Shown here piece after piece: positions 30,370 through 42,852 of a stretch of 45,846 bases of DNA. Source of the stretch: an uncultured Microbacterium sp. (GTDB taxonomy: Bacteria > Actinomycetota > Actinomycetes > Actinomycetales > Microbacteriaceae). The position numbers and the translations under genes were made by a program. The stretch's first letter is position 1. Every line of letters begins with the position of its first letter. The stretch is from assembly GCA_913774845.1 (NCBI GenBank), contig CAJYJO010000036.1:1-45846 (forward strand), written 5' to 3'. The notes beneath the pieces are model-generated. The model did not search any database and was not told the origin of the DNA. It saw nothing but the letters and a program-made list of their open reading frames with translations.

Positions 30370-31455
30370 GTGCGCGTTTCCGTGCCGACCGAGATCAAGA
30401 ACAACGAGAACCGCGTCGCGATGACGCCCGCGGGTGTCGACGCCCTCGTGCATCGAGGTCACGAGGTGGTCGTCCAGGCCGGGGCGGGGGAGGGGAGCGG
30501 CTTCTCCGACGAGCAGTACCGTGCGGCCGGGGCCGAGGTCGTCGCCACCGCCGATGAGACGTGGGCGCGGGCCGAGCTCCTGGTCAAGGTCAAGGAGCCG
30601 ATCGCCCCCGAGTACGGCTACCTGCGCCCCGATCTGACGCTCTTCACGTACCTGCACCTCGCCGCCGACCGGCCGCTGACCGACGCGCTCGTGTCCTCGG
30701 GGACCACCGCGGTCGCGTACGAGACCGTGCAGACCGCCGATCGGGCCCTCCCGCTTCTCGCCCCGATGAGCGAGGTCGCCGGACGCCTGTCGATCATCGA
30801 GGGAGCGCACCACCTGCTGCGCGCCTCGGGAGGACGCGGGCTCCTCCCCGGCGGCGTCCCCGGCACGCCGCGCGCGAAGGTCGTGGTGATCGGCGGCGGC
30901 GTCGCGGGCGAGCACGCGGCGGCGAACGCCCTCGGGCTCGGCGCTCGTGTGACGGTCGTCGACATCTCGCTCCCCAAGCTCCGCCAGCTCGAGGAGCGAT
31001 TCGGCGGCGCGATCGAGACCCGCGCCTCGACCCGTCTCGAGATCGCGGAGCAGCTCGCCGACGCCGACCTCGTGATCGGCTCGGTGCTGATCCCGGGAGC
31101 GGCGGCGCCCAAGCTCGTCACCGACGAGATGGTCGCCGCGATGAAGCCGGGCGCCGTGCTCGTCGACATCGCCATCGATCAGGGCGGCTGCTTCGAGGGT
31201 TCGCGCCCCACCACGCACGACGCGCCGACGTTCCGCGTGCACGAGGCGCTGTACTACTGCGTCGCGAACATGCCCGGCGCCGTGCCCCACACGTCGACGC
31301 GCGCGTTGTCGAACGCCACCCTGCCGTACATCCTGCGCATCGCCGATCAGGGCTGGGAGGCCGCGGCATCCGCCGACCCCGCCCTCGCGAAGGGCCTGAA
31401 CGTGCGCGCCGGCGAGGTCGTCAACGAGGGCGTCCGCGCCGCCTTCGGCCTCTGA
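30370..31455 (+). CDS. ald: Alanine dehydrogenase
   Basis: NAD-dependent interconversion of L-alanine with pyruvate and ammonia. It is 361 residues. Substrate residues Arg15 (NENRVAMTP), Lys75 (VKVKEPI) and His96 (TYLHLAAD) are in place, as are the nucleotide-binding VVVIGGGVAGEHAA and the C-terminal ANMPGAVPHTSTRALSNAT. GTG start with AGGAGG 5 bp upstream. The promoter region contains the AT-rich stretch tttttgataatac and several A/T runs suited to Lrp-type binding, and it is divergent from the Lrp-family gene. Confidence 0.97.
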   Translation: MRVSVPTEIKNNENRVAMTPAGVDALVHRGHEVVVQAGAGEGSGFSDEQYRAAGAEVVATADETWARAELLVKVKEPIAPEYGYLRPDLTLFTYLHLAADRPLTDALVSSGTTAVAYETVQTADRALPLLAPMSEVAGRLSIIEGAHHLLRASGGRGLLPGGVPGTPRAKVVVIGGGVAGEHAAANALGLGARVTVVDISLPKLRQLEERFGGAIETRASTRLEIAEQLADADLVIGSVLIPGAAAPKLVTDEMVAAMKPGAVLVDIAIDQGGCFEGSRPTTHDAPTFRVHEALYYCVANMPGAVPHTSTRALSNATLPYILRIADQGWEAAASADPALAKGLNVRAGEVVNEGVRAAFGL

Positions 31456-31478
31456 ACGACCGGACCTCCCACGGCAGA

Positions 31479-31763
31479 GGTGGCTGAGCCTGTCGAAGTC
31501 ACCGGCCGGGTGCTCAGGTGGTGTCTGTCGGTGCTTCGGCAGAGGTGGCTGAGCCTGCCGAAGTCACCGGTCGGTTCCCGATCCGGTGCCTATCGGTGCT
31601 TCAGCGGAGGTGGCTGAGCCTGTCGAAGTCACCGGCCGGGTGCTCAGGTGGTGCCTATCGGTGCTTCGGCAGAGGTGGCTGAGCCTGTCGAAGTCATCGG
31701 TCGGTTCCCGATCCGGTGTCTGTCGGTGCTTCGGCAGAGGTGGCTGAGCTTGTCGAAGTCACC
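31479..31763. repeat. Five 25-nt hairpin repeats at an exact 65-bp period (left array)
   Basis: The 25-mer GGTGGCTGAGCCTGTCGAAG plus TCACC recurs at 31479, 31544, 31609, 31674 and 31739 with at most one or two changes. Each unit folds as a 7-bp stem around the 11-nt core GAGCCTGTCGA. Spacers alternate between two types, giving a 130-bp higher-order unit. The array runs into the 3' end of the GIY-YIG gene, whose stop lies in the fourth unit. Confidence 0.9.
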
Positions 31764-32053
31764 GGTCCCGGGTCGGGTCGCGCAAGTCTTGGCAGGTCTG
31801 CTCCGCGGGACGCGATGAGCGCGAGCTTCTTCTCGCGCCGCCAGCCCTGAAGCTGCTTCTCGCGGAGGAAGGCCAGCTCGACCGCGTCGAACCACTCCGC
31901 ATACACGAGCCGCACGGGCCTCCGTCTGCGGGTGAAGGATGCCGCCATCTCGTCGTCGTTGTTGTGCTCCCAGACGCGGCTCTCGAGCTCTCGGCCGGTG
32001 CTGCCGACGTAGAGGGAACCGCCGCGGCACTCGAGGATGTAGGTCCAGGGCAT
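31694..32053 (-). CDS. GIY-YIG nuclease domain protein (UPF0213/YhbQ-like)
   Basis: Putative structure-directed endonuclease of 119 residues. The N-terminus WTYILECRGGSLYVGSTGRE is the GIY-YIG core (here YIL and YVG); Arg in LESRVWEH and the region VRLVYAEWFDAVELAFLREK, which contains the catalytic Glu, follow. The domain ends near residue 85. The last 30 residues (PVTSTSSATSAEAPTDTGSG region) are translated from the hairpin repeat array, which also supplies the stop codon. A CACGAT box sits exactly 6 bp before the ATG. Arrays of the same hairpin core in opposite orientation lie on both sides of the gene. Confidence 0.88.
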   Translation of the reverse strand: MPWTYILECRGGSLYVGSTGRELESRVWEHNNDDEMAASFTRRRRPVRLVYAEWFDAVELAFLREKQLQGWRREKKLALIASRGADLPRLARPDPGPVTSTSSATSAEAPTDTGSGTDR

Positions 32054-32120
32054 TCGCCGATCGTGCCACCGCGACGATCCTGCGCGGGAGCTCCTGTGGA
32101 CAACGTCGCGCGCGGGTCCC

Positions 32121-32389
32121 GGTCCCTTCGACGGGCTCAGGGACCTTCGTGCGGCGTGGTCGGGGGGTGCCGCTCCCTTCGATGGGCTCTGGGACCTTGT
32201 GTGGCGCGTCGCGCGGGTCCCGGTCCCTTCGACGGGCTCAGGGACCTCGTGTGGCGTCGCGGGTGCCGGTCCCTTCGATGGGCTCAGGGACCTCGTCTGG
32301 CGTCGCGCGGGTCCCGGTCCCTTCGACGGGCTCAGGGACCTTCGTGTGGCGTCGCGCGGGTTGCGGTCCCTTCGGCCGGCTCAGGGACC
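32121..32389. repeat. Six 25-nt hairpin repeats (right array, inverted core)
   Basis: The 25-mer GGTCCCTTCGACGGGCTCAG plus GGACC occurs at 32121, 32172, 32222, 32268, 32316 and 32365, spaced 46-51 bp. Each has 7-bp arms (GGTCCCT/AGGGACC) and an 11-nt core TCGACGGGCTC, which is the reverse complement of the left-array core with one change. The spacers are near-copies of one another (gtgtggcgtcgcgcgggt). The array fills the 367-bp gap between the GIY-YIG start and the next gene. Confidence 0.9.
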
Positions 32390-32420
32390 TCGCGGACGGG
32401 AGACGAAGGGTGTCGACGCG

Positions 32421-33104
32421 CTACCTGCGCACCCAGGCGTAGGTGATCTCGGGGCGGCCCTGGCCGCCGTAGCGGGGAACACGGCGCACCCGCCCGACGT
32501 CGGCGAGGTGCTCGAGATAGCGCCGCGCGGTGACCCGCGACATCCCCTCGCGCTCGCCCACCTCGGTCGACGACACCGCCCCCTCCGCCGTGCGGACGCG
32601 TTCCGCGACGGCCTGCAGCGTCTCGTCGCTCAGCCCCTTCGGCAGGACGGGGGCCGCCACGGTGCGCAGCGAGCCGAACAACGCGTCCACCTCGGACTGC
32701 GTCGCCTCCCCGGCGGCACGATCGAGCCCCTCGACGTAGGTGCGGTAGGCGTCGAGCCGTTCGCGGAAGGCGGTGAATGCGAACGGCTTGATGAGGTACT
32801 GCACGACCCCGATCGACACCGCGGCGCGGACGGTCCCGGCATCCCGGACCGCGGTCACGGCGATGATGTCGACGCCGGAGCCCATCGCCCGCAGCCGTCG
32901 GGCGACGTCGAGGCCGTTGCCGTCGGGCATGGTCATGTCGAGCAGCACCAGGTCGATCCGGCGCTCGGGGTCGGCGACGGCGGTGATCGCGGCGCGCGCC
33001 CCCGATGCCTGCCCGGCGACTTCGAACCCGGGCACGCGCTCGACGTATGCGCTGTGCAGTTCGAGGGCGAGGGCGTCGTCGTCGACGACGAGCACGCGGA
33101 TCAC
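32421..33104 (-). CDS. CitB/DcuR-type response regulator (dicarboxylate module)
   Basis: Receiver domain with VLVVDDDALA, phosphoacceptor Asp56 in VLLDMTMPDGNG and Lys in YLIKPFAF, followed by a C-terminal helix-turn-helix (SSTEVGEREGMSRVTARRYL). It is 227 residues. Its start overlaps the kinase stop by 4 bp. Plan and sequence resemble the regulator at 21373; both modules face a carboxylate transporter. Likely target: the divergent symporter operon at 34840. Confidence 0.92.
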   Translation of the reverse strand: MIRVLVVDDDALALELHSAYVERVPGFEVAGQASGARAAITAVADPERRIDLVLLDMTMPDGNGLDVARRLRAMGSGVDIIAVTAVRDAGTVRAAVSIGVVQYLIKPFAFTAFRERLDAYRTYVEGLDRAAGEATQSEVDALFGSLRTVAAPVLPKGLSDETLQAVAERVRTAEGAVSSTEVGEREGMSRVTARRYLEHLADVGRVRRVPRYGGQGRPEITYAWVRR

Positions 33105-41355: not shown

Positions 41356-42852
41356 GTGAGCGCATACACCTCCGCGTTCGAGCTGTTCTCCATCGGGATC
41401 GGACCCTCGAGCTCCCACACCGTCGGCCCCATGAAGGCCGCCCTCGACTTCGTCACCCGCCTGCGCGCCGATGGCGGCCTCGGGCGCGTGGCATCCGTCA
41501 CCTGCGCGCTGTACGGCTCGCTCGGGGCCACCGGTATCGGTCACGGCACCCCCGACGCGGTCGTCGCGGGACTGCAGGGTCTCGATCCCGAGACCGTCGA
41601 CCCGGATGCCGTCCGCCGAGCGTGGTCGGACTGGCCCGACGGCAGGGTGCTGGCGCTCGCTGGAGAGCACGAGGTCCCCTTCTCCAAGGCCGACATCGCC
41701 CTCGAGCCGCGTACCCGTCTCCCCGGCCACCCGAACGCGATGACGCTCGTCGCGCGCGGCGCCGACGGGGCCGCAGTGGCGGAGGAGACGTTCTACTCGA
41801 TCGGCGGCGGGTTCATCCGCCGCGAGGGGGAGGCGCCGCGGGTGGCGTCCGCGCCCCTTCCGCTCGCCTTCGACGACGCTGCGACACTGCTGGCCCTGTG
41901 CGACGAGCGCGGCATCACCATCGCCGAGGCTGCGCGGCTCAACGAGGCGGCGCTGCGCTCCGACGAGGAGATCGCCGCCGGCCTCGACCGCATCTGGGAT
42001 GCCATGGCCGCCTGCGTCGACGCCGGGTTGCATAACGACGGGGTCCTGCCCGGCATCCTGAAGGTCAAGCGCCGGGCCGCCGTCATCCGCGGTCAACTGG
42101 ATGCCATCGAGGCGGAGGGTCATCGAGAGCTCCCGGGGGAGTGGCTCGGCGCGTTCGCTCTCGCGGTGAACGAGGAGAACGCGGCCGGCGGTCGAGTCGT
42201 CACCGCGCCGACGAACGGGGCGGCGGGGATCCTCCCGGCGGTGGCGATGTACTGGTGGCGTTTCCTCGCCGATTCCGGGCTCGGCGTCGGCAACGCCGTC
42301 ACCCCGCACGGCGAACTCGTTGGCAGCGCGCTGCTCGGCTACGACGGTCACGCGGTCACGCGCACCGAGGTCGCGCACTGGGATGATGACCACGTCGCCG
42401 ACGCCAACCGTCGTCGGGGCATCCGCCGATTCTTGTTGACCGCGACCGCCCTGGGCTCGCTGTTCAAGGCGAACGCCTCGATCTCGGGCGCCGAGGGCGG
42501 ATGCCAGGCCGAAGTCGGTTCGGCGTGTGCGATGGCCGCGGGTGGGTTGACCGCGGTCATGGGCGGTACGAACCGGCAGATCGAGAACGCCGCCGAGATC
42601 GCCATGGAGCACCACCTCGGGCTCACCTGCGACCCGGTGGGCGGTCTCGTGCAGATCCCGTGCATCGAACGGAACGCCATCGCGGCGTCGACGGCCGTCA
42701 CCGCGGCGCGGTTGGCGCTGCGCGGCGACGGTTCGCACTACGTCTCGCTCGACGCCGTGGTCGAGACGATGCGGCAGACCGGTATCGACATGTCGACGAA
42801 GTACAAGGAGACGAGCGAGGGCGGACTCGCCGTCAACGTCATCGAGTGCTGA
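41356..42852 (+). CDS. sdaA: L-serine ammonia-lyase (iron-sulfur, single chain)
   Basis: Deaminates L-serine to pyruvate and ammonia; an oxygen-sensitive [4Fe-4S] enzyme. It is 498 residues. N-terminal [19 protein letters not shown] is the beta-domain signature; [34 protein letters not shown] and [17 protein letters not shown] supply the cluster cysteines. Between residue about 305 and [11 protein letters not shown] there is an insertion of roughly 40 residues (containing [15 protein letters not shown] and [15 protein letters not shown]) not present in typical enzymes. The GTG at 41356 has TACGCT exactly 6 bp upstream and no ribosome site, suggesting a leaderless mRNA. Confidence 0.94.

Follow-up and report, generated by a model that had tools for sequence, protein, structure and literature searches.

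Nuclease gene and hairpin arrays

The window (the whole stretch of DNA analysed, 45,846 nucleotides from a contig of an uncultured Microbacterium sp.) contains a stand-alone GIY-YIG nuclease gene with an array of short hairpins on each side (Table 1). The two genes that bracket the locus were named from their translations, and we take them to be alanine dehydrogenase-like and response-regulator-like. In the orientation of the nuclease gene, the right array is upstream and in sense, with units of the form GGTCCCTGAGC.., here called LE; the left array is downstream and antisense, with units of the form GGTGGCTGAGC.., here called RE. L numbers and G numbers denote loci and genomes as labelled in this analysis.

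Table 1. Positions of genes and hairpin units at the nuclease locus, numbered along the window.
Feature	Position	Strand	Remarks
Alanine dehydrogenase-like gene, left bracket	30370-31455	+	Name from translation
Whole stretch between bracketing genes	31456..32420	no strand	
Downstream array, hairpin unit 1, right-end (RE) type	31479..31503	+	GGTGGCTGAGC..
Downstream array, hairpin unit 2, RE type	31544..31568	+	
Downstream array, hairpin unit 3, RE type	31609..31633	+	
Downstream array, hairpin unit 4, RE type	31674..31698	+	Contains gene stop codon 31694-31696
GIY-YIG nuclease gene, stand-alone, 119 aa	31694..32053	-	PF01541; clade A of genus tree
Downstream array, hairpin unit 5, RE type	31739..31763	+	Minus-strand reading VTSTSSAT, protein C-terminal tail
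Upstream array, hairpin unit 1, left-end (LE) type	32121..32145	-	GGTCCCTGAGC..
Upstream array, hairpin unit 2, LE type	32172..32196	-	Degenerate
Upstream array, hairpin unit 3, LE type	32222..32246	-	
Upstream array, hairpin unit 4, LE type	32268..32292	-	
Upstream array, hairpin unit 5, LE type	32316..32340	-	
Upstream array, hairpin unit 6, LE type	32365..32389	-	
Response-regulator-like gene, right bracket	32421-33104	-	Name from translation

The layout given in the original prediction was reproduced: five 25-mers with an exact 65-bp period on the left, six units on the minus strand on the right (spacing 51, 50, 46, 48 and 49 bp), opposite orientation of the two arrays around the nuclease gene, and a stop codon inside a hairpin unit, where it lies in an arm of left unit 4. 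The arms of the left units were paired at 6 of 7 positions plus one G-T, with two G-T in unit 4. Right units 1, 3 and 5 were identical, and units 2, 4 and 6 deviated from them.

The core GAGCCTGTCGA had 10 matches in the window with at most one mismatch, 8 of them within the two arrays, when 2.3 were expected; none of 100 shuffles equalled this count. In the genome to which the window belongs (own genome; 3.37 Mb, 55 contigs), CTGAGCCNGTCGAAG had 137 exact copies and its reversed control had none. Folding with DNA parameters gave a left unit a z-score of -0.63 and a right unit one of -1.80; two units from other loci scored +0.35 and -0.75. As these scores are weak evidence, folding energy was dropped as proof of a hairpin. 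No Rfam family matched the region at the gathering score; a known RNA family was rejected, the only matches being two sub-threshold ones to mir-341.

The protein encoded in the window was assigned to the GIY-YIG family (PF01541) with an E-value of 6.3e-13 and 49.3 bits, against a curated cut-off of 22.6. The own genome has two PF01541 genes, the window gene and one in an open frame of 648 amino acids, which is of the UvrC kind, judged by length. Among the clade A proteins of the genus (see below), 17 of 18 were aligned, L044 being left out for an internal stop, and Y5, Y15, G17, R26, H30 and E65 were invariant in them. From the roles of such residues in GIY-YIG active sites, we presume that the invariant tyrosines, arginine and glutamate are catalytic. 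The C-terminal tail held STSSA or STGSA in 9 of the 17 aligned rows and a near form in one more. In the window gene, this STSSA-type tail is the translated RE hairpin, so that the gene extends into its own right end. A structure model of the protein (mean pLDDT 84.5) contributes the fold alone.

Hairpin classes and nuclease clades in the genus

We searched 149 genomes of the genus with the window protein and obtained matches in 62 of them, at 75 places. One place, the tail of the window gene, was dropped, leaving 74 stand-alone genes with flanks. The class A core was defined as CTGAGC-NN-GTCGAAG and counted in the same 149 genomes. It was present within 500 bp of 17 of the 18 top-scoring genes (>100 bits, clade A) and of none of the next 12. 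Overall, the expected enrichment of the hairpin near GIY-YIG genes was found for clade A, at 17 of 18 genes versus 0 of the 56 other stand-alone genes. At the clade A exception, L045, the gene lies between CCGAGC-NN-GTCGAGG hairpins, in which the closing pair T-A is replaced by C-G.

De novo repeats around non-clade-A genes were other hairpins. Two patterns, derived from L051-L068, were counted throughout the 149-genome set: class B is CGTTGAGCGAG..CGAAACG and class C is GAGTAG..CGTATCGA. Class A was near 17 of the 74 genes, class B near 28 and class C near 16; 13 had none of the three, and no gene had two of them. Among 38 further genes outside the loci from which the patterns came, 22 had class B, 4 class C and none class A. 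The classes tracked the protein tree, needing 9 changes where shuffling gave a mean of 38.8, on a tree with few columns and many open forks.

Seven of the 13 genes without class A, B or C clustered together (support 80/92) and were flanked by a fourth class, CCTGAGCGAG..GACGAAGG, recognized by eye. This fourth GIY-YIG group consists of L202, L203, L206, L209, L226, L229 and L236, and its hairpin differs from class B chiefly in the pairs adjoining the TGAG/CGAA step. Of the remainder, L045 is the C-G variant described above, L207 resembles a degenerate class B and L204 has another hairpin; no hairpin was found near the gene at L211, L234 and L239. Several class B and C genes (many of L051-L062; L067, L211, L234) have nearby palindromes of the form GTTTCACGTGAAAC, which in our reading resemble parS sites.

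Long-ORF PF01541 genes of the UvrC type in repeat-rich genomes served as a control. The exact core was found at 0 of 23 such loci (L069-L091, some with cut flanks), and allowing one mismatch gave a non-palindromic match within 500 bp at 2 of the 23.

Inversion of the hairpins about the gene, seen in the window, held more widely. Of the 17 clade A genes with units, 14 had a sense unit nearest on the upstream side and 16 an antisense unit nearest on the downstream side. The nearest unit was a sense LE upstream in 12 of the 17 and an antisense RE downstream in 13. By similarity of their flanking DNA, the 18 clade A genes occupy 12 genomic contexts in the genus.

Relatives across phyla

For a scan across phyla, one genome per species was searched with the clade A alignment as query, and the best 80 of 565 relatives were kept. 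The best-scoring named relatives were Microbacterium. The class A core with at most one mismatch was present within about 500 bp of 42 of the best 80 relatives, and the exact core in 37. Among the best 80, exact units flanked the gene on both sides in 28, and the exact core had 121 matches in 98.5 kb near the genes versus 19 in 608.6 kb further off, a 39-fold difference. With one mismatch allowed there were 154 near matches, against a mean of 0.09 and a maximum of 4 for 300 shuffled motifs. Hosts bearing the core included Actinomycetota, Chloroflexota, Bacteroidota, Cyanobacteria and Proteobacteria.

The arms varied among these hosts yet remained paired. Pairing at the inner two positions was 96% and 86%, versus 52% and 39% when the 3′ arms were re-dealt, and the signal weakened outwards. 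This covariation of the arms is more informative about the hairpin than folding energy is. The LE/RE rule was looser at the loci of named relatives.

Where relatives' loci had no class A core, many had different hairpins that share its TGAG..CGAA step. This signature, scanned with 4 of 5 arm bases paired, was near 74 of the best 80 relatives (294 near matches versus 61 far, 30-fold). With 5 of 5, it was near 32 of the best 80, against a mean of 0.24 and a maximum of 2 for 143 permuted signatures. The signature is post hoc, having been noticed in these same loci, and the permuted ones serve as its control. At UvrC-type loci the strict signature was found in 5 of 22 (4 of 5 arm bases) and 1 of 22 (5 of 5). 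A loosened form, XGAG..CGAY, which was near 75 of the best 80 relatives and 65 of the 74 genus genes, was rejected because its background was high in G+C-rich genomes (12 of 22 UvrC-type loci; 0.56 per kb near versus 0.73 far), and for this reason our claims rest on the stricter TGAG..CGAA. Within the genus, the strict form was found at only 2 of 11 clade C loci, where the closing pair is often C-G. When the closing pair was counted freely, it was T-A in 87 of 92 units of named relatives and mixed in the genus, with 25 of 44 standard pairs.

Copy numbers with and without the gene

The original prediction held that genomes with and without the gene should differ in hairpin copy number. In raw counts that ignore kinship, the genus genomes had a median of 124 class A copies with a clade A gene versus 2 without (p = 1e-10). 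The corresponding medians, again ignoring kinship, were 51.5 versus 0 for class B (p = 7e-15) and 12 versus 0 for class C (p = 6e-18), with or without a gene of the matching clade. Cross terms, likewise computed without regard to kinship, were not significant except for the B gene with the A repeat (p = 0.02).

The expectation thus held for the medians, though not cleanly: 23 of the 131 genomes without clade A have at least 20 A copies. Two of these, G070 and G058, have 297 and 171. At least 20 repeats without a gene of the matching clade were also present in 13 genomes for class B and in 1 for class C. In 14 of the 23 genomes there was no match to the window protein, and the PF01541 genes detected there all lay in open frames of 292-1239 amino acids; in the other 9 the stand-alone gene is of a different clade. 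As both have gene-bearing genomes among their near kin, recent loss of the gene from G070 and G058 is likely.

Repeats were somewhat better preserved where the gene was present (median exact share 0.71 versus 0.55, p = 0.013). Exact share and copy number are correlated (rho 0.76), which confounds this difference; restricted to genomes with at least 50 copies, it has p = 0.069. No genome has more than one clade A gene, so movement of the gene itself is rare.

Empty and filled sites

Twenty relatives were examined for the site of the window locus, and 16 had both bracketing genes in reach. In 14 of these 16 there was neither GIY-YIG gene nor array, the gap between the bracketing genes being 27-919 bp. 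G072 had both gene and hairpins. G063 had an array of 13 units without the gene (L173 2018-2544, downstream of ald), its gene being on another contig. G016 had one unit at the site, and 13 of the 16 relatives had no unit.

A second site lies in a gene that we take, from its translation, to be kdpB. The anchor distance was 23 bp in G073, G092, G072 and G007, 26 bp in G009 and G055, and 43 bp in G070. Filled with hairpins, it was 92, 122, 170, 230 and 299 bp in G024, G006, G063, G058 and the own genome, respectively. No target duplication was seen by eye at the empty and filled sites of the window locus and kdpB.

The kdpB hairpins are in frame, at L241 3281-3579 and about 4154 (G000:C2 about 41480-41778 and 42346-42360). 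Subtracting the empty 23 bp leaves 276, 207, 147, 99 and 69 bp in the five genomes, all multiples of three, and the own-genome insert translates as PEPVEG and VASTGSATSA peptides.

A third empty and filled site (L241 site 1) is hard to read, as its relatives carry another palindrome. This different, longer palindrome, roughly GTTGAGTGTCCAAGACACG..CGTGTCTTGGACACTCAAC, occurs in those relatives and at L178, L181, L182 and L188, in the gap downstream of ald.

Pairs of hairpins were counted in the fetched loci of the own genome, centred on 30 of its 137 copies, and of relatives. LE/RE pairs in (+,-) order, the same arrangement as around the gene, lay at 41-45 bp in 15 of 19 distinct cases, about 70 bp in all. 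Pairs in (-,+) order were scattered, with none at 41-45 bp among the 15 listed of 18. The pair at L241 recurred together with its spacer, in at least 7 matches in four relatives. From the fixed distance and the recurrence, the hairpin pair looks like the element minus its gene, although two observations fit this less readily. Most adjacent pairs were tandem copies on one strand (16 of 28 in the own genome, 86 of 122 in relatives), and the smallest two of the filled kdpB sites, in G024 and G006, have LE(-) followed by RE(+), unlike the fixed-distance arrangement; the smallest filled site was accordingly rejected as a REPIN-like pair.

Proposed mechanism and alternatives

We read the locus as a REP/REPIN-like system in which the partner is a GIY-YIG nuclease. 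Since related enzymes in many bacteria have matching hairpins of their own, such pairs of enzyme and hairpin may be selfish, mobile DNA. It is probably one copy of a mobile-type unit, in the order LE hairpins, GIY-YIG gene, RE hairpins, and the hairpin would be a recognition signal for the nuclease that is nicked or cut and then copied. The sequences support this reading with the pairing of clades to classes, the inverted flanking, the dispersal of the hairpins, the several gene contexts, and sites that are empty in some genomes and filled in others.

Recognition, cleavage, a copying step and the exact unit copied are inferred. The signal would be the short stem broken by the conserved TGAG/CGAA step. 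This step consists of two facing 5′-PyGAPu-3′ steps, which would be expected to stack as tandem sheared G.A, a structure that we presume from work on DNA. The nuclease would most likely cut or nick the hairpin when it is extruded or single-stranded, and single hairpins as well as hairpin pairs might then be copied elsewhere by host repair or replication. In this way LE-spacer-RE pairs, short elements of about 70 bp, would spread without the gene, by analogy with REPINs and RAYT transposases. GIY-YIG enzymes are not known to form a covalent intermediate when they hydrolyse DNA, so they must differ from RAYTs in the joining step; no enzyme is known for this step.

A different possibility is that the nuclease is site-specific and the hairpins are its cutting marks for DNA uptake, recombination or defence, spread mainly by ordinary recombination and duplication and not by the nuclease. 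For such marks, we take as model the Ssn nucleases of Neisseria, whose target sequence is repeated. The same specificity between clade and hairpin would be expected, and a single gene of the clade per genome would fit, as would a nuclease with no joining activity that we know of. Same-strand tandem copies are the commonest neighbours, and arrays of constant period, such as the 65-bp one in the window, show that ordinary duplication adds copies. However, the genes lie in 12 contexts and the hairpins at sites that are empty in near relatives, and the left and right flank types and the fixed-distance pairs look like transposition rather than a fixed mark. We therefore regard cutting marks as unlikely. 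It is still less likely that only shared ancestry is involved, with nuclease clades and repeat classes each following a few strain lineages and co-occurring without interaction. The copy counts do ignore kinship, and repeat-rich genomes without the gene, such as G058 and G070, can be near kin of gene-bearing ones; but the same core lies by the gene in all the phyla named above, and within the genus the gene contexts differ.

Two further explanations leave the nuclease no part in the spread. In the first, a RAYT or other IS200/IS605-type transposase moves the hairpins as REPs or REPINs and the GIY-YIG gene is a passenger; the organisation is indeed that of REPINs and RAYTs as excerpts of PMC2817692 and PMC3116915 describe it. 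However, a search of 18 genomes, among them the own genome and repeat-rich ones, gave no match to Y1_Tnp (PF01797), whereas 5 of 14 control genomes were positive, so a RAYT driver was rejected. Since a passenger gene also fails to explain three exclusive pairings of clade with class, this explanation is highly improbable. Hardly credible at all is the view that the hairpins are transcription terminators or mRNA stabilisers gathered in intergenic gaps and near the nuclease by chance. The window units are indeed palindromic and all but two are intergenic; against this stand the enrichment near the gene, the controls with shuffled motifs and UvrC-type loci, the class specificity, and the Rfam result for the region.

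Beyond this locus, our reading of a nuclease-driven mobile unit may extend to stand-alone GIY-YIG nucleases across bacteria. These might drive miniature mobile hairpins of a large class whose members have not been joined until now, with one hairpin class per enzyme clade and a common TGAG/CGAA-like (tandem G.A) step, many anonymous palindromes being its non-autonomous members. This wider proposal is tentative; we find it plausible and stop short of calling it probable. Short palindromes are common unexplained repeats in bacteria, and if many of them belong to one kind of small nuclease across phyla, one enzyme and one oligonucleotide would suffice to test their origin, spread and typing value. 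Proteins linked to palindromes throughout a genome, such as RAYTs, would then include an enzyme of different chemistry, and natural hairpin-specific nucleases would be supplied.

Comparison with known systems

The nearest solved structures, by sequence and also by fold, belong to UPF0213 (PDB 1zg2 and 1ywl), which shares family and size with the window protein. The phmmer E-values were 2.7e-7 and 2.5e-5; the predicted fold gave Foldseek E-values of 1.3e-4 and 6.7e-3, with modest TM-scores of 0.45-0.56. The titles of these entries mention no hairpin partner. The next-nearest folds to the model were HIGLE and Slx1 nucleases (6seh, 6sei, 7cq3 and 7wme; Foldseek E 0.019-0.052). Slx1 and similar GIY-YIG nucleases are selective for DNA structure. 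Slx1 is longer than the window protein and acts with Slx4, whereas the window protein is a stand-alone bacterial protein of 119 amino acids that is linked to a repeat.

Ssn enzymes are reportedly GIY-YIG nucleases of Neisseria and other bacteria that cut single-stranded DNA site-specifically at a repeated target sequence. The likeness is a small GIY-YIG enzyme with a target repeated throughout the genome. If, as we assume, proximity of the gene to copies of its repeated target defines Ssn, 17 of the 18 clade A genes show this feature. By description, the Neisseria target sequence is different, and that work was reportedly not concerned with the movement of hairpin pairs.

Among the literature matches listed, none joined GIY-YIG with REP/RAYT/REPIN-like or dispersed bacterial repeats, judging by title or start of abstract, and a search with the hairpin motif strings had no match. 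The comparison with REP and RAYT in the original prediction stands as an analogy of organisation, in inverted flanking palindromes and dispersed copies; as to the enzyme it does not, this being PF01541 and not a RAYT. Our system works like REPs, REPINs and RAYTs but is not a member, no Y1 transposase, the defining enzyme, having been found in the 18 genomes searched. In the excerpted accounts (PMC2817692, PMC3116915), REP/REPIN/RAYT systems combine inverted flanking palindromes, dispersed copies, inverted doublets, tandem clusters and repeat classes specific to the enzyme, and our locus likewise has flanking palindromes in inverted order, dispersed copies, doublets, clusters and enzyme-specific classes. 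REP palindromes have a GTAG or CGTC tag at the foot, according to an excerpt of PMC3733652. The differences are that a Y1 (HUH) transposase acts there and a GIY-YIG nuclease is found here, that the hairpins here carry the TGAG/CGAA signature inside, and that tandem same-strand copies here outnumber inverted pairs.
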